From Jaapia argillacea MUCL 33604 (taxonomy: Eukaryota > Basidiomycota > Agaricomycetes > Jaapiales > Jaapiaceae): 64,000 bases of DNA. The notes below the pieces were generated by a model, which had not been told where the DNA came from, searched no databases, and saw nothing but the letters and a program-made list of their open reading frames with translations. The DNA is taken from NCBI GenBank assembly GCA_000697665.1, contig KL197725.1, forward strand, positions 1 through 64,000, read 5' to 3'. Positions 4,822 through 64,000 of the stretch are shown in pieces (position 1 is the first letter of the stretch; the number at the start of each line of letters is the position of its first letter). The position numbers were made by a program, and so were the translations under genes.

Positions 4822-7200
4822 TCACTTGTTCTGGGAGTACGGGTTATATTCACCACCCTCTTGGTCGCTAACCAAGTTGGAGCTGCTTGTACGACCAGGG
4901 GTATTCCAAGTGGGCTGTGGAGCTTCGTGCTGTGGCGTATACGCTCGTGACGAACCCGCGTATTGAGGAGTTCCGTAACCCATGAGAGAGGCGGCCTCGG
5001 CCATTGGCGCAGGGGAGCTGGTTGGTTGAATAGCCGCCCTTGCAGCTCGCTTTCGGCGAGCCATGGAGACACCAAATACAGCTCCGAGAATACCGACAAT
5101 GGCGACGGCACCGATGACTCCACCGACGATGGCACCGGTATGAGATTGAGTGCCACTCGAACTACCCCCTGAACCGGAGCTGCTACCACCGGTGCTGTTC
5201 GACGACGAAGACGGGTTTTGACCGAACTTCAGGCTGGGAGGTAGGAGCGTCGCTGGGGCAGTGGGTTGAGTCCCGACTTGACCGTTACCGACGATGACCA
5301 TGGTGCCGTTACTGGGGATGCCGGCGATGACGACAAAGACCAACCCGGGACCAGGCTGGAAGATGTTGGGGTTCGGAGGAACCTGAGCTACGTGAAGGGT
5401 GATCGAGGAGTCATTGTTGACGGTGTAAGTGTTGTTGAGCTGGAGCGCCCTCTGACCGAAGTTCATAGCGTGTGTCGTCCATCCGGGTCGCATGAGCATG
5501 ACCGTGGTGTTGGCGGCTGCGACGTCGACGTTACCGGTGTAGCTCGAAGCAGGAACGGTGATGTTGAACATATTGCCACCGTATGTGAGCGTGCTGGGAA
5601 TTCCTGTGGGGGCAGGTCGAACGGGAGCAGACCAGTAGGGAGGGTAGAAGATCTCCGCTCGGTACTCGGTGTTGAACACGGTGTTCAAGTTGACGTCGGC
5701 GTTAGGGTTCGATCCGGCAACGAGGATGGATGCATCAGGAAGGAGGAGAGCACTCGAGTGGTAAAGACGAGCGATGGTGGATGTTCCCATTCCTGCGTTC
5801 GACCAACGTTGACCAGCTGGTGCGTAAGGATTGTAAATCGCGGGCCGTTCGACGGGACCAGAGGCAAGCGACATGCCGAAGGGCATAGCACCGGCAGCAG
5901 TCAAACCGGTCTGGGAAGCATACCCAGCGGTACCGTTGATACCACCGTTGATCACCAATAAGGTCTGATCGGGCAAAGCGATGAACTGACCCATCGTTCT
6001 CCCCACCAACATGTCATCATCCTGAACGTAAGCCGGCGTGGACCCATCGAGAGGCTCGGGCGTGATGCGCTGGCAGTCCTTCGACGCTGGGTAGAGCCAA
6101 GTGTTGGCGACAGGCCAGTTGTAATCACCATAGTCTGCTTCGGGCATATCGCTACCGCCACAGAAGATGACGGTTGGCGTGTAGTTGTTCGCAGGAGTGA
6201 GTGGAAGCATGGCGACGGCACCAGATGCGGGGTAGACGCGCGCAACACCGTGAGGCATGTCGGGGAATGGAGTCTCGACGTTGTTGATCGCGTCGAAAAG
6301 AACTGGGAGAAGTGAGACATTGAAGTAAGTAACGAACTGAGGGATGCTTACCAGTAGAGATGTTGGCCTGTACGAGCATCTTCCCGGAAGGCATCAGGAA
6401 TGTGTGGGCGTACGAGTTAAGGCCAGAAGTTTTGATCATGAACTGCATGACCTGAGCAGGTCCTTTGCTCGGGTAGAATTCATAAGTGGGCTCCGCCTTG
6501 CCGCCTTCGTACTCGGGATCAACGTTCGGCACGTTCCTGTTGATGTATCCACCACTGACGAAACCACCGATAATGACGACAGTGCCATCGCCGAGGGGCT
6601 CTGCGGCAGCATACCATCTCTCCTTTTGCATGGAAAGAACGGAGGGATCGTCGTACCATTGGCAGTTCACCGATGACAGATCCGATCCCATGCAGGGATT
6701 GAGGATTCGGATGGACTTGTTACCGTCGTAATCGCCGTATTGCGCATTGAAGCCGTTGACACCAGCGGCTCCATTAGCACCATTGGCGGCGTTACCACCG
6801 AATGTTGCGTAAGATCCATTAGGCAAATGCATACCAGCCGCGCAGAAAGTGTTGCTCCTGACGTCCATCGTCGTTGCCGTTCTGGAAGCAATATCCCTAG
6901 GAAGCGGTGGGCACGAGGTGCATGACCAACACGTGGAATACTCACCATACTGCACCCCACGCAGGATGGCCATTGATCTGCGCCGCGTTACCCTCCGCCT
7001 TGTCGAGAATGTAGACCTTCTCTTCGTTACCCAAGAACATCTGCTCCAAAGATCAGTCACAATTCCCGGATATCGAATTTGGAGCATACCATCATTGCGC
7101 TGACTTGGGTGGTTCCAGCTATGACAAATGAACCAGCAGTCTGAGCGAGAGCAGGCCCCGCTGTCGCCAGGGCCCCAACTAACAACGATAACAAAACCAT
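4822..7200 (-). CDS. Glyoxal oxidase (copper radical oxidase), membrane-anchored
   Basis: Four exons on the minus strand (7200-7090, 7040-6946, 6896-6352, 6302-4822) give 743 residues. The order is a cleavable signal peptide (MVLLSLLVGALATAGPALAQ), a glyoxal-oxidase N-terminal beta-propeller, and a DUF1929-type C-terminal domain. By alignment with galactose/glyoxal oxidase motifs, the radical cofactor residues are Cys87 (NTFCAAG) and Tyr164 (ERWYAAAE), and the copper ligands Tyr431-His432 (RLYHSS) and His528 (GWTTHAM); all are present. The known activity of the family is oxidation of aldehydes such as glyoxal and methylglyoxal to acids with release of hydrogen peroxide, feeding extracellular peroxidases. 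A Ser/Gly-rich linker (about 613-635) leads to a hydrophobic helix (about 640-664) followed by RRKR and a cytosolic tail of about 80 residues, so the enzyme should stay on the plasma membrane facing outwards. All residues needed for activity are visible and the frame is intact. Confidence 0.93.
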
Positions 7201-8010
7201 TGTCCGAGCAGAGAAAGAGGAGTACTAAGAAAAACTAAAAGCGGTTGACCGTACCGACCCTTCCTACGACGCTTGCTGCGTTGAGGTTAACCCAAAGGAA
7301 AGCGGGGGTCGGAAGTGGGGAGGCAGAGGGAGGGGAGGCGGTTTTGAGGCAACGGTGGTGGCAGGAAACAGCCTGTGCAGATCAGAGGGGAGTTGAATTT
7401 GAAGGGCTGTTCGATCAGCCGGATTATTAGGAGGGCATCAACGAACAAGGACTCTGCCGGTTGTCTCGGAGCAAAGAACTTCACCGATAAAGTTAGACCA
7501 GGTCGCGTGCATCTAAACTTTGACAACTTTTGCCTCATGTTCCATTCCATCTTCGTCTGCACCGCTTGGTCATAGCCTCAGCCCATCTCCTGACTACCAC
7601 ATCAATCCCAGGGCTCTTATTGAAGGCCTCAACTCTCCGCCTTGCTCGTCGCAATCTGGTCAAGCATACTGTTGATACCAGTTCGCTAGTTTGGGCGCAT
7701 CGTTGATGTTGAACATGATGTTATGCAGCGAAGAGGAAGCAAGCGCTCGCGAAGATCGGAATACTAGGAAATGCCTCATGCCGAGACTAGTGACGTGAAT
7801 GACTAGTCCGTTCCCATACTATTGCGGAATCGAAGGATAACCGCTCAAGGGTTGACCGACGATAGGTGTCAACGATAAGCAAACAGGTACAGCTGAATTT
7901 GCGGCATTTGATAAGGCAGGAGTTTATGTACGTCCTATCTGCCGTATATCGTACGACTGTCTGATGTTGCACCTCACTTGTCAGACTCTGCCGGGTACCA
8001 TCCGCCTCTT
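7201..8010. other. Intergenic, promoter side of glyoxal oxidase
   Basis: About 800 bp between the 5' end of glyoxal oxidase and the 3' end of the small gene at 8011. No convincing coding sequence, and no strong TATA motif close to the glyoxal oxidase ATG. Confidence 0.4.
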
Positions 8011-25341: not shown

Positions 25342-26085
25342 AAGCAGTAGGAGGATATGTATCACTTGAAGAGCTTTTTCGCGCAAATGGGAATTATGGA
25401 ACTCAGAGAAATTGTTCCTCGATCTCCCCCAATGCTGACGTTCAACTTTGCGAACTTACCAAAGGTTCGGACGTTATAACTTCCCTCCCAAGTTCTGCAT
25501 TGCCTGCGATAGTAACTCACAACAGTTTCTTGCAATCTCTGTCGCAGAATCATAGCTCCACCCTCGCTGTCAACTACGCCTTCCCAACCGCTGACAAGAG
25601 CCGCAAGACCACCGCAGTGTTCGGGCACGTTGAATGACGTGACTCATGCTCGATAAGAATATTGACTGTGGATCACCTCGCTTCCCAACGCCATCGTAGA
25701 GACACGCCTTTTCTTGCCCTATCGATCAGGGTCACGCACCCAGCGTTATGACACGCAATTTCCGCACCACCGAATCTACTATTCCTTCTCGTCTCGAGTC
25801 GATACTTGGCATCGTCACCGTCGAAAGGCTTCCGACGATTCTCCCAATAATGCCTTCCTGTCTCGTGTCTCACATGCGGAATATGATTCCGGGCATGTGG
25901 GGGGCTGTTTTTGTGTATAAGGTTTAGTGACCGATATACAGAGTCCTCGCGGCTTCATAGATCCCAAGATTAGGACAACAAGGTGGTTCGTCGATCACTT
26001 GAACTCTACCTCATGTCCTTCGAGCGCGCTTCAACCTATAAGAGCTCCCCTTTCTCATCAGTGACTTACACATTCTCCCTCCGCT
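25342..26085. other. Intergenic upstream of family L copy 1
   Basis: No gene recognised. A TATA-like word (cctataagagc) lies about 50 bp before the ATG at 26086 and may be its core promoter. Confidence 0.4.
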
Positions 26086-27684
26086 ATGGCCCCGCTCATG
26101 CCATCTGTCCTCATCTCAACCGTCTTCATCGTCTCGGTCGCCGCTCTACCCATCGCTCGCTCGGTCATCTGCTCTCCAGCAACATGGCACAATATAATCG
26201 TCTTTTTCATGATCAATTATGCTGCTCACGCTGCCACAATCCCGGCTGCCGCCGGCGCTACGTGGTATGACACCATGTTTTGGACGGTCGTCTGTCTTCT
26301 CCTACCATTTGCTGGTCTCGGAAAGGCGATGGGGTTGGTGTTGAATTATACCTGGGTGGGAGATAGTGAATTGGAGAAGGCTTGGGCTCGGGACGCTCTG
26401 CTGGTCGTTGCTCGGTCTAATGCTTGGGAGCCCAGCGACGAACCGGAGGAGGTGTATGTCAAACTCCCGAAAGGTTTTCTTACGGTCAAAGACGAGTACG
26501 TTCTTCGCTTATATTTCTCGGTCGATAGTCTCATAAGTTCTTTGAGTAGCTGTGCTACGATGCCATCCGCTACGATCAAGATCACCAGGGACGGTCAGGG
26601 CCACGACCTACAACCACATAAAAGTCTCAAGACCCATGGTGGGATCGAACTACCCCTGGACAAGGGCTATCAACTCAGTTACCCAGATCCCTACTACCTT
26701 TCGGAATACTTCCCCTTCCGTTCCAAAATCAACCGCGATACAACACTCGGTAAAACGCAGAGCTGGGTAAAGATGGCCATCTCTGTTGCCCAGCTCTTCT
26801 ATTCAACCATCACCCTCTGTCGCACCCAAGGAAGTCAACTCGAAAAATACGGATACGCCGCATATGGCCTGTCTGTCTTCCCCTATACCTTCATGTCGCT
26901 GGCGAACTTCCTCTGCATCGGTCTCGTCGGGGAGTACCCTAGCATATACATCCTCCGAACGGCCATAATTCGCGAAGCGGAGGGACGAGGAGGAAAGTTT
27001 ACTGGCGTTGTCGGATGTTGCGAGGGGGAAATTGGCAGTGCTGCTGTTACCGCTGCCGACAAGCCTGTGGTTGAATGGGGTGAATTCACCCGTACCACTC
27101 TTTCCGCTGCAGTTGATAGCTGGGATTCGAAGGAAGAAGATGCGAGCTTCTTGCAGAACTCGAAGATCTTGGTGGTCAAGGTTGGCGGAGTGACGAAAAA
27201 GTACCGTTTTCTACCACAGGCTCAAACTGCCGACCACGTCTTCTACGTCTCGTCGTATGCAAATCAGAATAGTATCCCGGATGGCGGCTGCGTATTTTCG
27301 ATACCGACATTACGGGATTTGGTCTACAAGGTCGTATTCGCTCTCGCCTTCGCATTGGCACTGGTCCTCCCGTATTTGGTCATTTATGGTTTCAGTCGGT
27401 TCGAAGCGAGAGAAAGTACTCTCGGGCAGAGAGGTTGGATGATGGCATGGCTCTCTTCCGGCCAGCTCGCGTTCCTCTCCTTCGGATGGATCAGCACCAG
27501 AATGCCGCATTTCAGTCCTTCGACATGGAGGGATATCTATAACGACCCTCACCCAGGCTGGTACCTCGGTCCCCTTATTCCGTCTCTGTTTCTCCTTCCA
27601 GTTACTGCCATCGGAGGGTTTATCGCTGCTGGACAGATGGTAGCCGAGTTTGGCACTTGCACTCTGTCGATTTCACCCTGGTAA
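26086..27684 (+). CDS. Polytopic membrane protein, family L copy 1
   Basis: Uninterrupted frame of 532 residues. Residues 5-22 look like a signal peptide or first helix; further hydrophobic helices lie near 36-58, 63-85, 245-262, 270-290, 405-425, 445-465 and 490-515. The soluble part between about 110 and 220 is hydrophilic. The best-conserved block is at about 225-290 (SWVKMAISVAQLFYSTITL, then GSQLEKYGYAAYGLSVFPY, then LVGEYPSIYILRT). Proteins with this SQL-KYGYAA-GLSVFPY core are widespread in fungi as uncharacterised membrane proteins. It is clearly paralogous to 30704-32287, which aligns along its whole length, including the C-terminal RMPHFSPSTWRDIYNDPHPG. No intron is needed. Function and cellular membrane are unknown. 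Confidence 0.82.
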   Translation: MAPLMPSVLISTVFIVSVAALPIARSVICSPATWHNIIVFFMINYAAHAATIPAAAGATWYDTMFWTVVCLLLPFAGLGKAMGLVLNYTWVGDSELEKAWARDALLVVARSNAWEPSDEPEEVYVKLPKGFLTVKDEYVLRLYFSVDSLISSLSSCATMPSATIKITRDGQGHDLQPHKSLKTHGGIELPLDKGYQLSYPDPYYLSEYFPFRSKINRDTTLGKTQSWVKMAISVAQLFYSTITLCRTQGSQLEKYGYAAYGLSVFPYTFMSLANFLCIGLVGEYPSIYILRTAIIREAEGRGGKFTGVVGCCEGEIGSAAVTAADKPVVEWGEFTRTTLSAAVDSWDSKEEDASFLQNSKILVVKVGGVTKKYRFLPQAQTADHVFYVSSYANQNSIPDGGCVFSIPTLRDLVYKVVFALAFALALVLPYLVIYGFSRFEARESTLGQRGWMMAWLSSGQLAFLSFGWISTRMPHFSPSTWRDIYNDPHPGWYLGPLIPSLFLLPVTAIGGFIAAGQMVAEFGTCTLSISPW

Positions 27685-29760: not shown

Positions 29761-30703
29761 CATCTAACCAATACAAGGAGACGTATGGAGTATGCGTAGC
29801 TGATTGTTTGGCTTTTACCGCCGCGTGTTGGGACTCGCTTTGGCAAGACGAGATGCGGAGGTGGGTCGACGAGAAGCGAAGAGTTGGTGCTGATATGCTT
29901 GACAACACTGAAGTTTATAAGGCGAGACTGACCGGTAGTATATACCCCAACGACGAACAGGTGTGTGGCGGGAGGCCGAGGACCGACGCGTCGTGCAAAC
30001 CTTAAGCTCCATTCTCCTTTTCGGCCTTCCACAACTCCAGTTTAATCCGCAAAACCCCCTCCGGCTGTCAGGTTCAACCATGAGCGCCCATCTGCACCGC
30101 AAATCTGGTACCTATGTGAGGCGTTCCAATCGGTTGAGACCATAGTCCCCGTTTACATCCCAAAGGATATCGGCACAATTAAACCCATCTCCGTCTAGGC
30201 CCACTGGCACGTCCAATCCGTCTGAACTCTCTTTGAACCGCCCCAAACTAGGTGAGTATCACTCAGAAACGTTTTGCTCACAAGCAAAGGCAAAGGCTAT
30301 GAATGTGACTTCATCCTCATCACCACTCGTTCGATTCCAGAATGCAAGCTGATAATGGATTCTTCACCACAGGGCGCCTCTGCTTCATCGTGATTGCACA
30401 GCCTTCCAGTACCCTATCAATCAAGGACAAGCGCCCTCATGTTGACGCACCAATCCCTGCTGATCTCAGTCCGATAGCTCAGGCCGATAGGAAGCTGTTG
30501 ACAATCGAAAGCAGTTTCATGATCAACAAGACTAATGTTCGGGGGCGAAATAGCGTTCGGAGGACACGAGGTACCAACCGGTGACTCAAAAAAAGACAGC
30601 CTAACCCGGAATGTACGAAAACCACAAAGAGATAATGCATACCGAGAAGTATATCTGGTAAGTAGGCACAAATGCTCGTTCGCTCTACCCCCGTACGCCC
30701 ACC
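29761..30703. other. Intergenic between family G copy B and family L copy 2
   Basis: Short open stretches (29808-30145 +, 30342-30584 +) without recognisable similarity. No confident gene. Confidence 0.35.
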
Positions 30704-32287
30704 ATGCCTCCAAGCTTCATCCCACTCATCCTCATCTCAATCTACCTCCCCGTCCCAGTCACCGCCCTACCCATACCTCGTTCTATCATCTGTTATCCAA
30801 CGACATGGCGCGACATGGTCACCTTCTTCGTAATCAACTACATAGCCCACGCGGCCTCAATCCCAACCGTCGCCGGCGCTACATGGTACGACACAGTGTT
30901 TTGGACCACCATCTCCCTTTTCCTCCCATTCGCTGGTCTCGGAAAAGCCATGGGACTGGTATTGAATTATATCTTGGTGGGAAAGAGCGACTTGGAGAAG
31001 GCTTGGGCTTGCGATGCTTTATTTGTCGTTGCTCGGTCGAGTCATTGGGAACCGGGAGATAAACCTGAAGAGGTGTATGTCAAATTCCCAGTTGACTTCC
31101 GTACCCTTCAAGACGAGTACGTTCTTCCCTTTCGCTGTTCCGTCGCCGACCTTATCTTCGAACGTAGATGTACCGCCACCATCAAAGTAACAAGGGACGG
31201 CGAAGGCCGAGACATAAAACCTCACGAAAGCCTCAAAATTCACGGCGGGATCTACCTCCCACCGGGCTACCAAATCGATTACCCAGACCCCTACTACCTC
31301 TCTGAATACTTTCCCTTCCGATCCACCATCAACCGCCGCATCTCCCTCAGTAAAACCCAAAGCTGGGTAAAGATGACCATATCTGTCGCACAACTCGTTT
31401 ATTCCACTACTACAATCTACCGTTCGAGAGGAAGTCAACTTGAGAAGTATGGATATGCTGCTTTTGGATTGTCGGTTTTCCCTTATGCTTTCATGTCGCT
31501 TGCGAATTTTCTCTGTGTGGGTATTGTGGGTGAGTACCCGAGCGTGTCTATTCTTCGGACGGATGTGATGTATGAAGCGGAACGAAGGGGAGGACATTTT
31601 TCTGGTGTTGTCGGATGTTGTAAAGGCGAACTTGATGGTATTGTGGGCGGTGAAGGGAAACCGTACGTGGAATGGTCAGATTTCACACGTACCACAATTT
31701 CCGTTGAGAGTGGTGGGAGTTCGAAAGAAGAGGAGGGCGATGAGTGTTTTTTGGAGAAGATCTTGGTGGTTACGGTTGAAGGAGTGACGAAGAGGTTCCT
31801 ACTCCTACAGGACTCCGATCGAGGAGGGGATACCGACGTCGACCACGTCTTCCAAGTATCATCGTACGCAAATCAAGGCTCCATCCCCGGCGGCTGCTAC
31901 GTTTTCCCCAGAGAAAGCCTACAAGGCCTACCCTACAATTCAGTCCTCTTGACCACGCTCGCACTATCCTTAATCCTCCCTTATCTCGTCATCTACACTC
32001 TCACCAAATTCGAAGCTCGAGAAAGTACAATCGAACAACGAATTTGGATGATGGCATGGCTTTCTTCCAGCCAACTCGCTATTCTCTCTTTTGGTTGGAT
32101 CACTACTAGGATGCCGCATTTCAGCCCGTCGACCTGGCAAGATATATATAATGATCCTTGTACCAGGTGGTACTTTGCATTACTTTTTCCGTCGCTGTTT
32201 TTGCTTCCTATACCTGCTATGGGTGGGTTCGTTATTGTTGGAAATATGTTGGCGGAGTTTGGGACTTGTGCTTTGGCTCCTTCTTGA
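30704..32287 (+). CDS. Polytopic membrane protein, family L copy 2
   Basis: Uninterrupted frame of 527 residues, paralogous to 26086-27684 over its full length. The N-terminus MPPSFIPLILISIYLPVPVT is a signal peptide or first helix. The conserved core reads SWVKMTISVAQLVYSTTTIY, GSQLEKYGYAAFGLSVFPYA, VGEYPSVSILRT, and the C-terminal part TRMPHFSPSTWQDIYNDPCT. Seven or more hydrophobic helices lie in the same places as in copy 1. Differences concentrate in the hydrophilic region (about 110-215) and in the Gly/Glu-rich loop near 310-370. The function is unknown. The 3' flank (32290-32480) was also duplicated: a remnant is at 35785-36030. Confidence 0.82.
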   Translation: MPPSFIPLILISIYLPVPVTALPIPRSIICYPTTWRDMVTFFVINYIAHAASIPTVAGATWYDTVFWTTISLFLPFAGLGKAMGLVLNYILVGKSDLEKAWACDALFVVARSSHWEPGDKPEEVYVKFPVDFRTLQDEYVLPFRCSVADLIFERRCTATIKVTRDGEGRDIKPHESLKIHGGIYLPPGYQIDYPDPYYLSEYFPFRSTINRRISLSKTQSWVKMTISVAQLVYSTTTIYRSRGSQLEKYGYAAFGLSVFPYAFMSLANFLCVGIVGEYPSVSILRTDVMYEAERRGGHFSGVVGCCKGELDGIVGGEGKPYVEWSDFTRTTISVESGGSSKEEEGDECFLEKILVVTVEGVTKRFLLLQDSDRGGDTDVDHVFQVSSYANQGSIPGGCYVFPRESLQGLPYNSVLLTTLALSLILPYLVIYTLTKFEARESTIEQRIWMMAWLSSSQLAILSFGWITTRMPHFSPSTWQDIYNDPCTRWYFALLFPSLFLLPIPAMGGFVIVGNMLAEFGTCALAPS

Positions 32288-36926: not shown

Positions 36927-38255
36927 CTATAGATGAGGGATGAAGGTTGTCCAATAAACATTCTCGAATGCCCCAGGAGGGAGAGAGCGAAGCGATGTGA
37001 ATGCAAGGACTAGCAGTGCAATACGTGCAATGACATATATAATAGATGTGGCTGGTACGACGAAGCCTATCAATATGGCACTAAACAGTGATTCTTCCGG
37101 AGATTGAAACGCGCTCACTGCCAGAAGCGGTGCCGAAGTGACGACGACAGCGGACACACGCCAGATGAGCTGCTGCGCATGAGAAGGAAATTGGAGAGAC
37201 CAAGCAAAACAATGAATCGCCCCGAACACACAGGCGATGAATGCCGAAATCCATGCGACGAGACTATCCTCCGTATCATCGAGGTCTCCTGCATAGAATG
37301 TCGGTACCTGGAGAGCTTTCCGATCGATGCTGGGGAGGAGCAAGGGTAGGATGACAGCTTCCCTGAGGAGATAGTAGGGGAATGAGAAAACTCTTGCCAG
37401 AGGATGATCCCTCTTCGCCATGCCCCACGCTTCTGAAAACACAGCTCGCGTTCCCGATTTGAATCGGGAAGCGATACGGACAAAGCCATTTCTCCCCTTG
37501 TGATGGTCCTCGGCTCCATTTTCGGCTTCACCCCCCTTCTCAAGTACTTCGTTGTCGTATGGAGTGGGCCGCTCACGAAGGGTATACGGGTAATGGACAT
37601 CGGCAGGTTTATTCCACCAAAACCAGTAGGTGGCCAGGTTGAGGACTGTGAATGCAAGGGTAGCGATTTCGAGTTCGGTAATGGGGAGACGCTTGATGAC
37701 ACGGGCCAAACATTGAAGAATGAACCACGTCGTTTGTACCAAGACAAGTCCTTTCGATAGTGCATCGCGTTTGCTTCTATCTTGTATGTGAGCCTCTGTG
37801 ATGGGTGGATATTCGTCGAACAAGAAGTCGCTGAGATGGGCACTGTTGGGTAGGATTACCTCCACAGGCACCTCCATCCTTCCTCGAACCCGCATAAAGC
37901 CACCCATCAGAGTGAAGAACCCATGAGTCTTCGTCCACCCACGTTCTGCGACTCAGTATCAGAATGCTTGAGACGAGAAACTCAGAAATTCAGTTCAGAC
38001 AACCGCACCTGAATGAGCCTTTGCGATACGACGAGCACAAAACCACTGCTTCATTGCCCATAAAATCGTCAACTCTGGTGCAATCAACGCCATCAACATA
38101 AGGCCCACACGGCGGAAAGTAATTTCGATTGATGTTTCATAAGGACCTGGGATATTCGGATGGACAGCAACCCAGGTGCAGGAGAAGACCGTCGTAAGGC
38201 AACTGGAAACAATGCCCCACATCGTCCTGTTATTGCAGACATCAGAAACAGACAT
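36927..38255 (-). CDS. Polytopic membrane protein, family M copy 1
   Basis: Two minus-strand exons (38255-38009 and 37945-36927) joined through a GTGCGG...CGCAG intron give 421 residues. Exon 1 carries a TM helix with MWGIVSSCLTTVFSCTWVAV and HPNIP, and a second helix LMLMALIAPELTILWAMKQW. The junction gives the family motif ERGWTKTHGFFTLMGGFM. Next comes IQDRSKRDALSKGLVLVQTT with WFILQCLARVIKRLPITELE, helices near 215-240, 270-290, 330-350 and 375-395, and the C-terminal motif FTSLRSLPPGAF...YWTTFIPHL. This architecture (MGGF / IQDRSKGDxLSKxLxxxQTTWF / PITELExxTLAFAxLN) is a widespread fungal membrane-protein family of unknown function. All signatures are present and the frame is intact. Three further copies lie in the window. 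Confidence 0.87.
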
Positions 38256-47256: not shown

Positions 47257-48491
47257 ATGTCAACGTGTAGAGACATCGATAACTGCAGGATGATGTGGGG
47301 CATCGTCTCCAGCTGCCTTACCACCGTCTTCACTTGCACTTGGGTTGCCATCCACCCAAACATTCCCCATCCTAATGACACATCTTTCAATATCATGCTA
47401 CGCTGCGTCGAGATTATGATCATGGCACTCATAGCGCCAGAGATGTTGATTCTCGTCGCTATGAAACAATGGGTTGTTGCTCGACGACTTGCAAGAAAAC
47501 ACCAAGGTGAGGATGTTTGATCTGTTGTGTAATCTCTGCTGTGGCTGAACAGAGACATTAAGGGCGTGGCTGGACAAAAACACATGGGTTCTTTGTCCTA
47601 ATGGGTGGCTTCATGGTTGTCAACGGAGAGCGAAAAGGTAAAACAGTCAAGTTACTAGGTCCAGATGACTTTCTCGATCACGGGTCCGAGATTTTGGATG
47701 ACGACAAGTTTCCTCTGATTACTGAGGACGAGATTCAAGACAGAAGCAAACGCGACACTCTTTCGAAGACTCTCATCCTCCTACAGACAACCTGGTTCAT
47801 CCTCCCATGTGCCGCTCGAGCCATTGTGCATCTCCCCATTACCGAACTCGAAATCGCCACGTTGGCATTTACAGCACTGAATCTGGTGACTTGCACGTTT
47901 TGGTGGAATAAGCCAGCTGATGTTCGTTATGGACATCCAATTTTCTTGGAATCCATGCAACCCACTGAAAGTAAGGCCAATCGGGCGGTCCACCAGGCCA
48001 TTGAGCTGCTAAACGCTATACCGCACATCACTGGGACAACACCTTGGACGATGGCGAGAATGGTCATGTCCCCCTTCGAGGCCTTCGCCCATTCTCCTCT
48101 TTGGGGTGGCGGAGGGGGGCAAGTGCCAATATTGTACTTAGGACATTCCGAAGGCAATGACTTGCTTCGGATTGGCCAGATTTCAGCGGTTATCGCGACT
48201 CTATTTGGGGCCATACATTGTTTAGCTTGGTCTTTCCCATTCCCCTCCCAGGAGCAGCAGCTCCTTTGGCGCGTATCAGCTATCACCATTACATCTTCAC
48301 CGGTCGTCGGAATTCTGATCATGAGTCTCCCGATGTCTGAAGGCGTCGGAGTCTTACTTGGACTTTTCGCGGGTTTTGCATACGTTGCAGGGCGCGTCAT
48401 CTTGCTCGTCCTGGCTTTTACGTCCCTTCGATCTCTCGCTCCTGGAGCATACGAAACAGTTCGCTGGACCACCTTTATACCCCATCTCTAG
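47257..48491 (+). CDS. Polytopic membrane protein, family M copy 3
   Basis: Two exons (47257-47506 and 47563-48491) give 392 residues. Exon 1 includes MMWGIVSSCLTTVFTCTWVA, IHPNIPHPNDTS and the helix IMALIAPEMLILVAMKQWVV. The intron (GTGAGG...TTAAG) must end in AAG to keep frame and yields GRGWTKTHGFFVLMGGFM. Exon 2 holds IQDRSKRDTLSKTLILLQTT with WFILPCAARAIVHLPITELE, a shorter middle than copy 1, helices near 280-300, 310-330 and 345-370, and the C-terminal LVLAFTSLRSLAPGAYETVR...FIPHL. It is the most divergent member here and is on the opposite strand to copies 1 and 2, so it is not part of the recent tandem. Function unknown. Confidence 0.87.
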
Positions 48492-55191: not shown

Positions 55192-56464
55192 ATGTCAATT
55201 TCCGATGTCCGCCATAACAGAACAATGTGGGGCGTTGTCTCGAGCTGCCTATCGACTGTTTTCGCTTGCACTTAGGTTGCTATTCATCCGAACATTCCCG
55301 GGCCAGACGAAACATCCATCAAGGTTACTGATCGCTGTATAGACCTTACACTCATGGCGTTGATTGCATCGGAGTTGATGATTTTGTGGGCGATGAAACA
55401 GTGGTTTTGTGCTCGTCGTATCGCAAAGGATCATTCGGGTGCGATTGTCTTACGCGACTTTCTCGTCTCAAGTATTCTGATACCGAGTTTTAGAACGCGG
55501 CTGGACGAAGACTCATGGCTTCTTTGCTCTGATGGGCGAGTTCGAGGAAAAATGGAGGTGCCGTTGGCGGTAATCCTACCGAACGATCTCAATGACCTCG
55601 TAGAATTTCCGCCAGTCACAGTGGCTCAAATTCAAGATAAAAGTAAACGCGATGCTCTCTCGAAAGGACTCGTCTTAGTCCAAACAGCACCTTCCCATCA
55701 CCGAACTCGAAATCGCTACGCTCACATTCACGATTCTCAATCTCACCACCTATTCGCTTTGGTGGAATAAACCCACCGACGTACGTTGCCCGTATCCCAT
55801 TCGCGAGAAGCCGACTATACATGACGGCGAAGTACTTGAAGGAGGGGATGAAGCCGCAAATAGATCCCGTGGAGGGGGGAATGGTTTCGTCCGCCTCGCT
55901 ATCCGATTGAATTCCGGCGTTCGAGCTGTGTTTTCGCGGGCGTGGGATGAATCGGTGATGGATGATCCTCTTCCAATGGATTTCGTAGCACTCCCCTTCT
56001 TCGTCCTCGTCAACGGTTTCCTCGAGCCCTTCTTTACCCCCAAAAACAACGAAGATAGGCCTACGCGTGTACCGACATTCTATGCAGGAGACCTTGAGGA
56101 TAAGGAAGACAGTCTGATCGCGTGGAGTTCAGCTCTCATTGCTAGCGTATTCGGAGCGATACATTGTTTTGCTTGGTCTCTCCAATTCCCTTCGCACACG
56201 CAGCAGCTAGTCTGGCGTATATCAGCCGTCACCATCACTTCGGCACCACTTCTGGCAGTGGCCATATTTCATTTTCGGGACGCTGTTTCGACGTTTAGAA
56301 CAGGATTTAACCTCACGATAATATTCTCTCTCACCACATTGATATCCATAACATATGTCGTTGCTCGCATTACCCTACTTGTTCTCGCATTCATGTCGCT
56401 TCGCTCCCTTCCTTCTGGGGCATACGAGACTGTTTATTGGACAACCTTCATCCCTCACCTGTAG
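55192..56464 (+). pseudogene. Family M copy 4, damaged
   Basis: Exon 1 (55192-55438) reads MSISDVRHNRTMWGVVSSCL and STVFACT, then a TAG where copies 1 and 3 have Trp (TWVA), then VAIHPNIPGPDETS and LMALIASELMILWAMKQWFC. After the intron (GTGCGA...TTTTAG, ending 55493), GWTKTHGFFALMG is followed by a small deletion that removes GGFM and shifts the frame. A second deletion after LVLVQT removes the WFILQCLARxIKR block. From about 55690 the frame is open to the end: PITELEIATLTFTILNLTTY, VPTFYAGDLEDKEDSLIAWS, VARITLLVLAFMSLRSLPSG and YWTTFIPHL at 56464. Three separate lesions make it a pseudogene. It is closest to copies 1 and 2 by sequence. Confidence 0.82.
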
Positions 56465-59495: not shown

Positions 59496-60159
59496 TGTAT
59501 GATGTTCCGTTTGTACATTTATTATTTCGTCGCACGCACTGGTTTTTAGCGCGCGCGCAAGGTCTTATTGCCATTCTAGGAGAAGTAATAACCTTATAAA
59601 TCCCTTGATAAGGAAAGTGGAAGTTTCCGAGAAGCATAAGCATTGACATTCGGAGGGTGGTCGCTGTTGCTGACGGCGACGACGACGAGCTCTTGATGAG
59701 CTGAGCCTACTTGAGGACCATCTAATAAAAATAAATTGCCATTTACTCAGACACAAGCAAGAGAAACACGAAGTTCACGGCACATGAAACTGTTGGATTG
59801 CCATTTGCGAAGCCGAAAATGAGGTGCACGACGGCATGAGGGGGATTGAGATGGGAAAGAGCGGATTGTATACGAAAACAATAAAATATTAGGGAAGAGG
59901 ACAAGGAGGACGGGGGAAGAAGGAAGGGTCCATCGTGCATACAGCCTTCTGATGGGGATTTCAAAAGCTTAAAAAAAGCGACCTATAAATGTGAGCTCGT
60001 CTTCGAGGACACCGAATGTATGAGAAACAGTCGATGAGGGCTTCAATTGCCATGTAGAATCCTTCAATAATAAGTAGATACCAATATATACGCGATGCGC
60101 GTGGTAATAAACCCAGCGCGCGGTGCGAAATAATAAATGTACAAACGGAACATCATACA
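59496..60159. mobile_element. 664-bp non-autonomous inverted-repeat element
   Basis: The 34-bp sequence at 59496-59529 (tgtatgatgttccgtttgta then catttattatttcg) is repeated exactly, inverted, at 60126-60159. Imperfect inverted similarity rich in CGCG words continues inward (gcacgcactggttttta versus gcgcgctgggtttatta). The interior has no transposase-like frame. The arrangement is that of a deleted, non-autonomous DNA transposon or large MITE. Outer borders could extend a few bases beyond the exact match; no target-site duplication is evident. Confidence 0.75.
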
Positions 60160-60655
60160 AATGCAGCGTAGGACCAGCGCTTAGGGTTGGGGGCGCTCAG
60201 CCAGTTACCTCCATCCCGTGTGTGCCTCCTCACTTCATGCATCCTAGTGTTGTCTGTCTTCATTCGAGCTACAACTCCCAAATCCTCCCTGGCTGACGTT
60301 TTCAATACAGTCCCACTATCTCTTAGAGTATCTCGTGGACCTCCAAAAACCGACTTCGACTCCTGAGGCGTCGTCGATCCTATTACCTTCCATAGATGAA
60401 AGACCATTCAAGTTCTCCGGATCATCCAACTTTCCATATCTGACTATATATTTGCTATCCTCTCCAACAGTCTCCCCATCCCTTCTGCATCTCCTCGATA
60501 CCAGGCGTGACGTAACCCGACGTGGCATCGAGAAATCTGAGTAAGTAGTCTTCACCATCTTCATTTCGGACTATCATTGACTCTTATGCCTGCTAATCGC
60601 ACATTTTGTTCACCAGTGTCTCGAAGGCCCCGGGCGACTGCCATATGTGTTTCTG

Positions 60656-60771
60656 CGGAATTAGCATATTTGAGGCCCCCAAATAGGTTATTTTCTCCTC
60701 CGTAAACTGCATATTTGAGGGCGAATTTGGTCTTCAAGACCCAAAACCCTCTCCGGAATTAGCATATTTGA
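60656..60771. repeat. Short repeated motif, three copies
   Basis: cggaattagcatatttga occurs exactly at 60656-60673 and 60754-60771, with a related word (ccgtaaactgcatatttgag) near 60700. Spacing is about 45-55 bp. Confidence 0.75.
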
Positions 60772-60999
60772 CTGTTGTGTTAGGTTTCAAACCTCGAGTC
60801 AGCTCTTGTCATACTTCGCGCCGACTCGTTTGAGCGATCGTATGCCATTCGATGGCTCACAACCCTCTGCCGGCACACAGACGCTATATCCGAGTTGCAA
60901 GGATTTTCTCCGAGAATTTTCTCCGAATTCTTTCGATTCCCCCAGAATCCAACCGGACGCACTGGTTCAGGATGCAGTATCTGTTGGAAATCTGCGCAG

Positions 61000-61839
61000 G
61001 TAAGGCCTCCGCCGGCACTCACACTCGCCTCAGCAGTGGACGTTACTCTGACTGACATCCCCCTCGAGAATCAAGACTATTCCAGCGTGGGAGCGCAGAC
61101 ATGGGGCGGACCTTGCGTCCTCTCCGATAATATTATGGCTTACCCCGGAGGAATTCGGTTTATTCCCCGAAAAGCGATGCTATGTTTCGGCGTAAATTTT
61201 TAGTGCCGATTTTTACCCACTGATAAGGCCTTTCGTGTTCTGGAGTTGGGAGCGGGTACTGGCCTTGTCAGCTTGGTCCTCGGAAAACTACTCGAATCAG
61301 AACATCGATCCCACCAGACCAACATCATCACCACAGACTTCTACACGCTCGAATTGTCTAACCTCACCAATAATATCGCAACCAACTTTCCTGGCCAGCC
61401 CACACTTCGTCTCCCCATCGAATCTCACCTTTCGGACTGGTCGGAATTCTCATCCCAGACCGAAGAACCCCCATCTCCCTTCGACGAATCCTTCAACCTC
61501 ATTTTCGGTGCAGACATTTTTTTCGAAGCATAACACGCAACCTGGATCAAACTTTGCGTGGAGAAACTGCTTCGGAAGCCAGGAGTTGACGCCCCCTCGT
61601 CCCGAGCTCATCATTAGAACCAATGCATCTACTACTTTCCCCATTTCCATCTTGTCATGGCCCTTCGCCCAACTCATACATCCGAATCAAACACCATCGA
61701 ACAAGTGTTCCCAATGCTGGCCGCCGCCCAATCTCGAAATCAATTGGTAATCCTGAGCAAAGAATCGATTTTCTGCGATTCTCCTGGCGATGGCAAGGAG
61801 GGGGTCGAATACGCATATTACGTGATTGGTTGGTCGTGA
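61000..61839 (+). pseudogene. METTL21-type SAM methyltransferase, interrupted
   Basis: Coding segments read VDVTLTDIPLENQDYSSVGA with QTWGGPCVLSDNI (61020-61135), an intron-like gap, FRVLELGAGTGLVSLVLGKL (61220-61290; motif I, the SAM-binding GxGxG-type loop, with the upstream acidic residue), NIITTDFYTLELSNLTNNIA, FNLIFGADIFFEA (motif around 61495-61530), ATWIKLCVEKLL, then HLVMALRPTHTSESNTIEQV and EGVEYAYYVIGWS (61650-61836). This order is typical of the METTL21/NNT1-like family that methylates protein lysines. A TAA directly follows IFFEA where the family continues (EA-x-HATW), and the frame changes again near 61600-61640. Two lesions therefore separate it from a working gene. The 5' end upstream of about 61000 is unclear. 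Confidence 0.75.
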
Positions 61840-62053
61840 CGCTCTCCGGAGTAGATTACCACTGCATTAGAGGATGATGGGGATTTGGAGCTGGTGCTGG
61901 GTCAATCTCGACGTGGGGATCTCGTAAGTGCAAATACATAGAAAGAGCTGATAGACGACAACATGAATGCTATACACAATGCTTGGATATGTCCAATCAT
62001 AAAAATCATGGTTTAGCGCCTGCGTCAAGCAGGACTTGGTTGATTAGTGGTGG
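61840..62053. other. Convergent 3' spacer
   Basis: Short spacer between the convergent methyltransferase and GCN2 pseudogenes; no gene seen. Confidence 0.5.
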
Positions 62054-64000
62054 TTATTGGAGCGTTAGGAGTTGCGCTCTTTCATCCCTCACGGAAAAGA
62101 GGAGAACAAAACGATGACCATCGCCCTTCTTCCTTGAGACAACATCCTGAATTTGATGAGCGTAAAACGAGTGACCACTGGGGAATCCATTCAATATTTG
62201 ACGCCAAGCCTCTTCCTCCGAGACCCAGGCAGAATTTCTTGCCGCGATCATGGCATCAAAGACGATTGGAGGGACATCCACCGCTACGACACACATGCCT
62301 GATTGAAAAGCGCTCTTGATTTGGTCTTCCGCACTGAAAGCTGATTGTTGACTTGAGTGAAATGCTGTTCTCTTCGGTTTTAGATGACCTTACCTCTGTC
62401 CGTGAAGAGCTGCTTCGCTTGCTTGCGCTGCTTTTTCGTATCACCGGGTAGTAGTAATTGGACGTCTGGGGCGCTGGAACTCTCCCTCCTAAGAGCATCG
62501 GGGATAACTTGAGGATTCTCCGCGACAGTAGCAATGCTGGATGTTGAAGCATCGACACATTTCTGCTCTGAAATGTGCTGCTGAAGCCAATTGACAAGCT
62601 CTTGACGAGTAACTACGAATAGACGTTAGCTTCAGTTCAATCTCAAAGAAGTCGCTAAGCACAACCTTCATATACTGTCCCTTTCAAATGCTCCTTATCT
62701 TGAACGCGGGTTGGTCACGTTGGACTGACCGTGGGCGTGGGTACACGGTGAATCTGGGGACATCTCAGTCTCAACTGAACAGTGATGAGTCCCATGACTC
62801 ACAAAATACCCTCTCTTGCGCAGAGGTCCGTGTGGCTCTCATGGTCATTATCAGGTAGGCCAGCCTCATACATTACATCTGCACTGATCCTGTGCTTCCA
62901 AAGTAGGGCCACAACCTCCAGCCTGTCGCGTAGATAGCCTTGGCGATAGGACACAACGTACACATCGCATCGGCGTGGACTCCAAAACCCAAAAGACTTC
63001 TGCTCCTTGAAAAGATGTCGGACTGACATGCTTTGGAATGCAGCTAGGGCAAGGGTGATCTTTTCAATGGCGATCTAGACCGCAACAGCCCGGACAGCGT
63101 CGGATTTGGCCTTCGGTGGAGCGAATTGAGAGATCAAGCCATCGTAACTAGGACCCACTATCATCAGCCGGATAACGCTTGCGCAAGGATACGGAAAACT
63201 CACCGTCTGCCGGCGGCCAGAATGTCCGAGTGCCTATTCCTTCGTACTACTTCAAAACAGACACCATCTCTGAAATGTGAAACGTGGCTTCCCAACATAA
63301 GCGGGTGGAATATAATAGGCTTGGTTACACCAGCAGCTGCGCTAAATCCCATCACTTTCTTGAGATCCTTGACGAGAGGCGCCATTCAGCTGGCTAGCGG
63401 GGGAGACACTTTGTCCAACTGGGACAGGAGGCCATCCGGGTCATAATCTACACAAGGACAACACCGAATGTTAAAAAATGATTAGGACGGTGATGCCGGA
63501 AAAGATTCTACCCATGTCCGATAAAATCTCGAGTTCATCGGCTGTGCTTCGAAGAAGGCCCTTCTTCAGCAACAATGCCCGCTTTTGGGAAGACGACGAC
63601 TTGGTCTGTGTTATGATGTCAATGACATCCTGTCGCGCATCTTCTGAGACACAGTTGAGCGCAAGATCGGGGACTAGTGAACAGTTAGACGAGGTGCAGA
63701 CACTGGAGAAACGAACATACTGCTTGAATGAGATATGCGAATCTCATAGTTCTGGCCTATTCCTGGAAAGCTATCAAGGCATCGATGGACAACTACGATT
63801 GCCTCGGCGGTGGCTGCGATGGGCCCATTCTCAAGATCAGGTGTAATGATGTCGAACACCGCTGCCTTTGAGAACTTAGGGTGACCGGCGATCAAACTGC
63901 AGGTAATGAGCGAGGATTTCGACAGGACGGCTAAAGTTACTCACTTGGGCTTAAAAATCTCGCCAATATGATAGCGTTTGATTCGTCTGATATTGGTCCG
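62054..64000 (-). pseudogene. GCN2: GCN2 eIF2-alpha kinase, C-terminal part, broken; runs off the window
   Basis: Minus strand, 5' part beyond position 64000. The order is NIRRIKRYHIGEIFKP (motif 2 of the HisRS-like domain), LIAGHPKFSKAAVFDIITPD, ARQDVIDIITQTKSSSSQKR with ALLLKKGLLRSTADELEIL, GVTKPIIFHPLMLGSHVSHF with RDGVCFEVVRRNRHSDILA, YDGLISQFAPPKAKSD, FGFWSPRRCDVYVVSYRQGY with DRLEVVALLWKHRISADVMY, FTVYPRPR, VTRQELVNWLQQHISEQK, and the ribosome-binding tail ending VLLFSVRDERAQLLTLQ at 62054. This is unmistakably the HisRS-like and C-terminal region of GCN2, the uncharged-tRNA sensor of the general amino-acid control. Three lesions are visible: a TGA after PPLAS (about 63391), a TAG after VRAVAV (about 63081, where Gln is expected) and a one-base shift after KIRSI (about 62685). 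The kinase domain is outside the window. Confidence 0.85.

Follow-up and report, generated by a model that had tools for sequence, protein, structure and literature searches.

The DNA analysed here, termed the window, comprises the first 64 kb (64,000 nucleotides) of contig C17. At its distal end, on the minus strand, it contains the 3' part of a GCN2 gene (62054..64000), hereafter copy A, whose start codon lies outside the window at C17:68439. The exons of copy A were placed by projecting those of a second GCN2 gene on the same contig, hereafter copy B. In the window these are exon 23 (C17:64308-63945, crossing the window end), exon 24 (63896-63721), exon 25 (63673-63512), exon 26 (63447-63204), exon 27 (63147-62803), exon 28 (62753-62666), exon 29 (62612-62394), and exon 30 (62340-62054), all on the minus strand. 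Matches to the Pfam family HGTP_anticodon2 were found at C17:62832-62984 and 62066-62410.

Gene structure and lesions of copy A

Copy A is not a chance reading of noncoding DNA, since 28 of its 30 projected exons have exactly the length of their counterparts in copy B. The exceptions are exon 28, which is 1 nt shorter than in copy B, and exon 14, where two in-frame indels (+57 and -18 nt) separate the copies. The 57-nt insertion is located at C17:65789 and the 18-nt difference at 65426; both sit in a low-complexity kinase insert. The splice dinucleotides of introns 23-29, which lie in the window, are kept in all seven cases, as the original prediction had proposed when it called the splice sites recognisable. 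Over the whole of copy A, GT and AG are present at the projected sites of 28 of the 29 introns, the exception being intron 22.

Comparison with copy B revealed five defects in copy A, namely three in-register stops, one exonic frame shift, and one phase-changing splice donor: (i) a TGA at 63388-63386, corresponding to codon 1214 in copy B numbering, in the HisRS-like domain; (ii) a TAG at 63077-63075, codon 1299, in the same domain; (iii) a 1-nt deletion in exon 28, in the C-terminal domain, placed near 62687 to within a few bases; (iv) a TGA at C17:66392, codon 491, between the pseudokinase and the kinase; and (v) a displaced, phase-changing donor of intron 22 near C17:64362. All are on the minus strand, and the last two lie outside the window. 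Thus, copy A has no open frame through all the domains of a full-length GCN2. The two stops and the frame shift originally reported at 63391, 63081, and 62685 are present within a few bases of these positions and are in register with copy B. They had been described as three independent lesions; the number stands, whereas their independence is doubtful, as all three lie downstream of the two other defects. Because both of those defects are upstream, the lesions in the window may have followed an earlier break.

GCN2 genes in the assembly

The assembly searched comprises 43.7 Mb in 95 contigs. Two GCN2 copies were found, both on contig C17 and about 250,000 bases apart: copy A (C17:68439-62054, minus strand) and copy B (C17:317789-324114, plus strand). 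When the genome was searched with the Pfam model of the GCN2 C-terminal domain, two loci only gave matches, at about 62 kb and 323 kb of C17; queries with 919 bases of DNA and with 254 residues of protein likewise returned copies A and B only. Such searches score only their best candidates, and a very distant third copy may escape them. The genome search with PF13393 matched one place only, on contig C2, and neither GCN2 copy was among its matches.

The gene model of copy B has 30 exons, separated by 29 GT-AG introns that measure 47-83 nt, and encodes 1587 amino acids with no internal stop. GT-AG introns as short as these suggest a fungus. Its introns were picked by hand with the GCN2 domains as a guide, and the GT-AG boundaries and the open frame were then checked, so that the openness of the frame depends in part on these picks. 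An automatic model built from codon usage and splice sites also gave an open frame of 30 exons and 1370 amino acids, but it skipped evident exons and was set aside. The encoded protein has the Pfam domain order RWD, Pkinase, tRNA-synt_His, and HGTP_anticodon2. The RWD domain (PF05773) scores 64.8 bits in the whole protein at residues 6-121, the kinase (PF00069) scores 207.5 bits and retains the HRD and DFG motifs, the HisRS-like domain (PF13393, tRNA-synt_His) scores 35.5 bits, and the C-terminal anticodon-binding-like domain (PF12745, HGTP_anticodon2) scores 146.3 bits. By position and alignment, a pseudokinase region is located between the RWD domain and the kinase. The three best PDB matches are chains of GCN2 length (1650-1673 residues), of which two bear the name GCN2 and the third is called simply a serine/threonine kinase; chain 9f58_A aligns with residues 6-1582 of copy B.

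The open frame and the domain content suggest that copy B is a working GCN2, and that the organism probably kept its sensor of amino-acid starvation. The original prediction had left two possibilities, a dead second copy or loss of the canonical kinase from the species, and had asked for another GCN2 elsewhere in the genome and for the kinase domain beyond the window. Both were found: copy B is open and full-length on the same contig, and copy A continues, kinase included, up to its start codon. The first possibility is thereby supported. Loss of the kinase from the species, for which nothing speaks beyond the decay of copy A, finds no support because the frame of copy B is open and encodes the RWD, kinase, HisRS-like, and C-terminal domains in the GCN2 order; we give this reading practically no credence. 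What had appeared as a possible eukaryote without GCN2 is replaced by an ordinary and well-documented event, the loss of a gene duplicate.

The duplicated tract and its surroundings

The similarity between the two sites extends over a tract of about 7.9 kb that is about 90% identical. It occupies 60786..64000 in the window and extends up to about C17:68656; its counterpart, in inverted orientation, is C17:317563-325402. The alignment consists of two blocks of 5009 and 2939 columns with 90.1 and 90.3% identity. The tract reaches from about 225 bp 5' of the GCN2 start codon to the inside of a neighbouring gene, whose remnant at copy A (60786..61839, plus strand) resembles lysine methyltransferases (Methyltransf_16). 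At copy B this neighbour is an open single-exon frame of 444 amino acids, convergent with GCN2 and scoring 54.2 bits for Methyltransf_16. At copy A its 5' part is missing, unrelated sequence taking over at about codon 89, and the 339 compared codons contain three in-register stops and, leaving the tract edge aside, five indels that shift the frame. We take copy A as the derived copy, since the truncated neighbour is found at this site alone.

The flanks of copy B outside the tract (1062 and 1098 nt) gave no match with an E value below 0.05 in C17:1-78000, and copies A and B are therefore not alleles. This bears on the reading of copy A as an assembly or sequencing artefact, or as an allelic haplotig assembled into the contig of copy B. 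In favour of that reading, a run of 1157 N begins 730 nt upstream of the tract. Against it, the two copies are on the same contig but inverted relative to each other, and their flanks are unrelated, whereas alleles would have flanks in common. Moreover, base substitutions account for three of the lesions, and about 10% of the bases in the tract differ. We consider an artefact highly improbable.

The surroundings of copy A are rich in repeats. A dispersed 155-nt repeat (60623..60777), with copies on contigs C4, C3, and C18 at 94-96% identity, adjoins the downstream edge of the tract, and a dispersed element (59496..60160) whose inverted ends are about 60 nt long is located nearby. On the upstream side, a dispersed repeat at C17:68984-69386 is followed by the run of N, which starts at 69387. 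Two membrane-protein-like gene families are present in many diverged copies (about 65-89%), direct as well as inverted, over C17 from about 20 to 117 kb; examples of their frames in the window are 26065-27684, 30662-32287, 36927-37952, 47562-48491, and 55679-56464. Two of these membrane-protein-like frames were scanned, and neither matched a Pfam family at E values up to 1. Two overlapping minus-strand frames at 4822-7234 may belong to a copper-radical (glyoxal) oxidase. At the upstream edge of the copy B tract, a tRNA had been suspected by eye; ARAGORN found none at the copy B locus.

Constraint and time of decay

The two GCN2 copies differ with a dN/dS of 0.194 (dN 0.036, dS 0.186; 1577 codons). 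Differences amount to 4.5, 3.3, and 12.1% at the first, second, and third codon positions, respectively, and to 12.9% in introns. Gene conversion that kept copy A like copy B was considered and rejected, because introns and third positions diverge alike while first and second positions differ less than either, which points to constraint and not to conversion. Of the 18 indels in the GCN2 gene, 15 are intronic, with introns making up 1562 of the 6326 nt; the three exonic indels comprise the frame-shifting one in exon 28 and the two in-frame ones in exon 14. Simulated copies that were dead on arrival accumulated on average 9.9 or 12.4 stops under two assumed branch lengths, compared with three in copy A, and three or fewer stops occurred in 1.2% or 0.05% of the 2000 runs made for each. 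The methyltransferase remnant, which is of equal age as part of the same tract, has a dN/dS of 0.354, and amino-acid changes make up a larger share of its differences than in GCN2 (nonsynonymous to synonymous, p=0.011). Its own ratio is still below the value of 0.5 or more that is expected if it was dead from the start; the remnant may have been functional for some time, or dN/dS may be estimated with a bias.

The low dN/dS, the few coding indels, the few stops, and the contrast with the methyltransferase together suggest that GCN2-A was long constrained. Most likely, it was used or constrained at the protein level for most of its existence and decayed late, with the timing of decay and the direction of changes being read from a single A/B pair. 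The claim that the decay is recent thus gains support from the dN/dS, from the exonic indels, only one of which shifts the frame, and from a number of stops below that of a copy dead since duplication. Conversely, we find it improbable that copy A has been non-functional ever since it arose. Such a history would agree with the copying of just about 225 bp of upstream sequence, with the truncation of the neighbouring gene, and with the CpG depletion described below, but not with a pairwise dN/dS well under 0.5, with the scarcity of coding indels and stops, or with the difference between GCN2-A and the methyltransferase remnant of the same tract.

Domain scores are lower in copy A than in copy B for five of the six matched domain pieces. 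The Pfam bit scores for copies A and B are 64.6 and 70.4 for RWD, 53.7 and 54.1 for the kinase N-lobe, 97.0 and 105.3 for the kinase C-lobe, and 14.3 and 22.7 for the HisRS-like piece; of the two C-terminal pieces, the first is slightly above copy B (50.1 and 49.3), and the second below (64.2 and 69.2). In the kinase C-lobe, four of about eleven amino-acid differences were checked by eye against three PDB relatives. At three of these sites copy B has the residue, or the type of residue, common to all three relatives and copy A does not; at the fourth, two of the three relatives agree with copy B. Copy A has a proline in place of the hydrophobic residue before HRD, a histidine in place of the subdomain XI arginine, and a phenylalanine where copy B and all three relatives have leucine.

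The copies also differ in CpG content. At sites with CG in one copy and TG or CA in the other, the loss is on the side of copy A in 98 cases and of copy B in 59 (p=0.0023), whereas C followed by another base shows no such imbalance in its C/T differences (39/40, 38/43, and 51/50 for the three contexts). Losses in A and B, respectively, number 60 and 32 in GCN2 exons, 21 and 11 in introns, 4 and 2 upstream, and 13 and 14 in the downstream part with the methyltransferase; for the GCN2 body the counts are 81 and 43 (p=0.0008). The depletion in the GCN2 body of copy A would fit decay driven by CpG methylation, whereas the even counts at the methyltransferase end would not.

An intron-like stretch in copy A

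The upstream stop at C17:66392 is covered by an in-frame, intron-like exonic stretch of 45 nt (C17:66393-66349) with a GTGAGG donor, a CTAAC branch-like site, and an AAG acceptor. Copy B has neither the GT nor the AG at this place. Intron candidates were scored with weights derived from the 29 introns of copy B. The stretch scores 12.3, equal to the median of these 29 real introns, a score reached by none of the 161 in-frame exonic GT-AG candidates in copy B. In a neutral simulation of 400 copies, 21 of 4451 stops were covered by an equally good candidate. At 45 nt the stretch is shorter than every real intron, and the test is post hoc, as the candidate was spotted first and then scored. A second in-frame exonic candidate in copy A scores 12.0 and covers no stop; good scores can thus arise without need. 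With these qualifications, the splice signals suggest that the stop may be spliced out through a candidate intron.

The two stops in the window have no comparable candidate among those scored. Six in-frame GT-AG pairs exist around the stop at 63388, three of which were scored (7.8, 5.7, and 0.5), and twelve around that at 63077, two of which were scored (4.6 and 5.7). The weakest real intron scores 8.1. In a full scan of 175 exonic candidate introns in copy A, neither stop fell within any of the six best. For intron 22, the in-frame alternative scores 7.7 and the shifted, frame-breaking donor 12.7.

From these elements, copy A could be read as alive but shortened, the new 45-nt intron removing the stop and translation ending after the kinase, at the moved donor of intron 22. 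The product would include the RWD domain, the pseudokinase, and the kinase without the HisRS-like and C-terminal parts, or, if the stretch stayed unspliced, the RWD domain and the pseudokinase only; like the RWD protein Yih1, it could be a competitor of GCN2 (here GCN2-B) for GCN1. The intron-like score, its rarity among candidates in copy B and in the simulation, the presence of donor and acceptor in copy A alone, and the strength of the shifted intron-22 donor agree with such a product; the three lesions in the window would then simply fall into the 3' untranslated region. Codons 1-490 are also less disturbed than those downstream (dN/dS 0.125 vs 0.241; p=0.021), and constraint is weaker after codon 956 when codons 1-490 plus 561-956 are compared with 957-1587 (p=0.021), both splits having been picked post hoc. 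However, the contrast at codon 490 comes mostly from dS (0.247 vs 0.160) and less from dN (0.031 vs 0.039), and the domains differ in their natural constraint. The short length of the stretch, its post hoc discovery, the stop-free candidate of nearly equal score, the loss of the three conserved kinase residues, and the lower score of the RWD piece also speak against it. A translated short product appears unlikely, and quite unlikely is the more specific proposal of a living shortened GCN2 paralogue whose stop was neutralised by intronization and which damps GCN2-B through competition for GCN1 or through inactive pairs.

Proposed history of the GCN2 pair

Copy A is very probably an unprocessed duplicate pseudogene of GCN2. 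In the history that we propose, about 7.9 kb comprising the whole of GCN2, about 225 bp 5' of its start, and, from the convergent methyltransferase gene, its 3' part would have been copied in inverted orientation into a repeat-rich region of the same contig. The useless methyltransferase fragment would have decayed, while GCN2-A, judging by dN/dS, indels, and stops, would have remained constrained at the protein level through most of the period after the split. Its function would then have been lost in one or several events, including the phase change at intron 22, the two stops and the deletion in the HisRS-like and C-terminal parts, and the changes of kinase residues; CpG methylation may have driven the decay of its GCN2 body. 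Copy B, with its open frame and domains, would be left as the working GCN2. Read in this way, a second GCN2 was seemingly kept long and lost late, and the co-duplicated neighbour can serve as an internal clock for neutral decay. In the titles and abstract openings returned by a literature search on GCN2 pseudogene, duplication, paralog, and loss, we found no fungal GCN2 pseudogene.

Comparison with known systems

Copy B resembles GCN2, the eIF2alpha kinase of general amino-acid control, in its domains and its full-length matches to GCN2 structures. Copy A has the same layout at the DNA level but, unlike GCN2, is untranslatable as a full-length protein as it stands.

Yih1 and IMPACT are RWD proteins that compete with GCN2 for GCN1, and Yih1 is described as competing with Gcn2 for Gcn1 (PMC9704636). 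A truncated copy A would likewise carry an RWD domain; its RWD has drifted, the product is hypothetical, and the likeness is speculative.

Copy A also resembles unprocessed (duplicated) pseudogenes. It keeps its introns (28 of 29), was duplicated together with flanking DNA and a neighbouring gene, carries disabling lesions, and has an apparently intact parent in copy B with its open frame of 1587 amino acids. It departs from this class in the long constraint that seems to have preceded its decay and in the position of one stop inside an intron-like stretch.

New introns can arise inside exons by intronization of exonic sequence. The candidate in copy A differs from this process in being known from sequence alone and in lying within a pseudogene-like copy. 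It resembles it in that a stop-bearing exonic stretch at C17:66393-66349 gained a donor, a branch point, and an acceptor, that is, splice signals like those of real introns, which the sister copy lacks. Should splicing occur here, the A/B pair would show a premature stop and a new intron arising together; if, in addition, copy A lives on as a shortened paralogue, intronization around a stop would have been caught within one gene pair.
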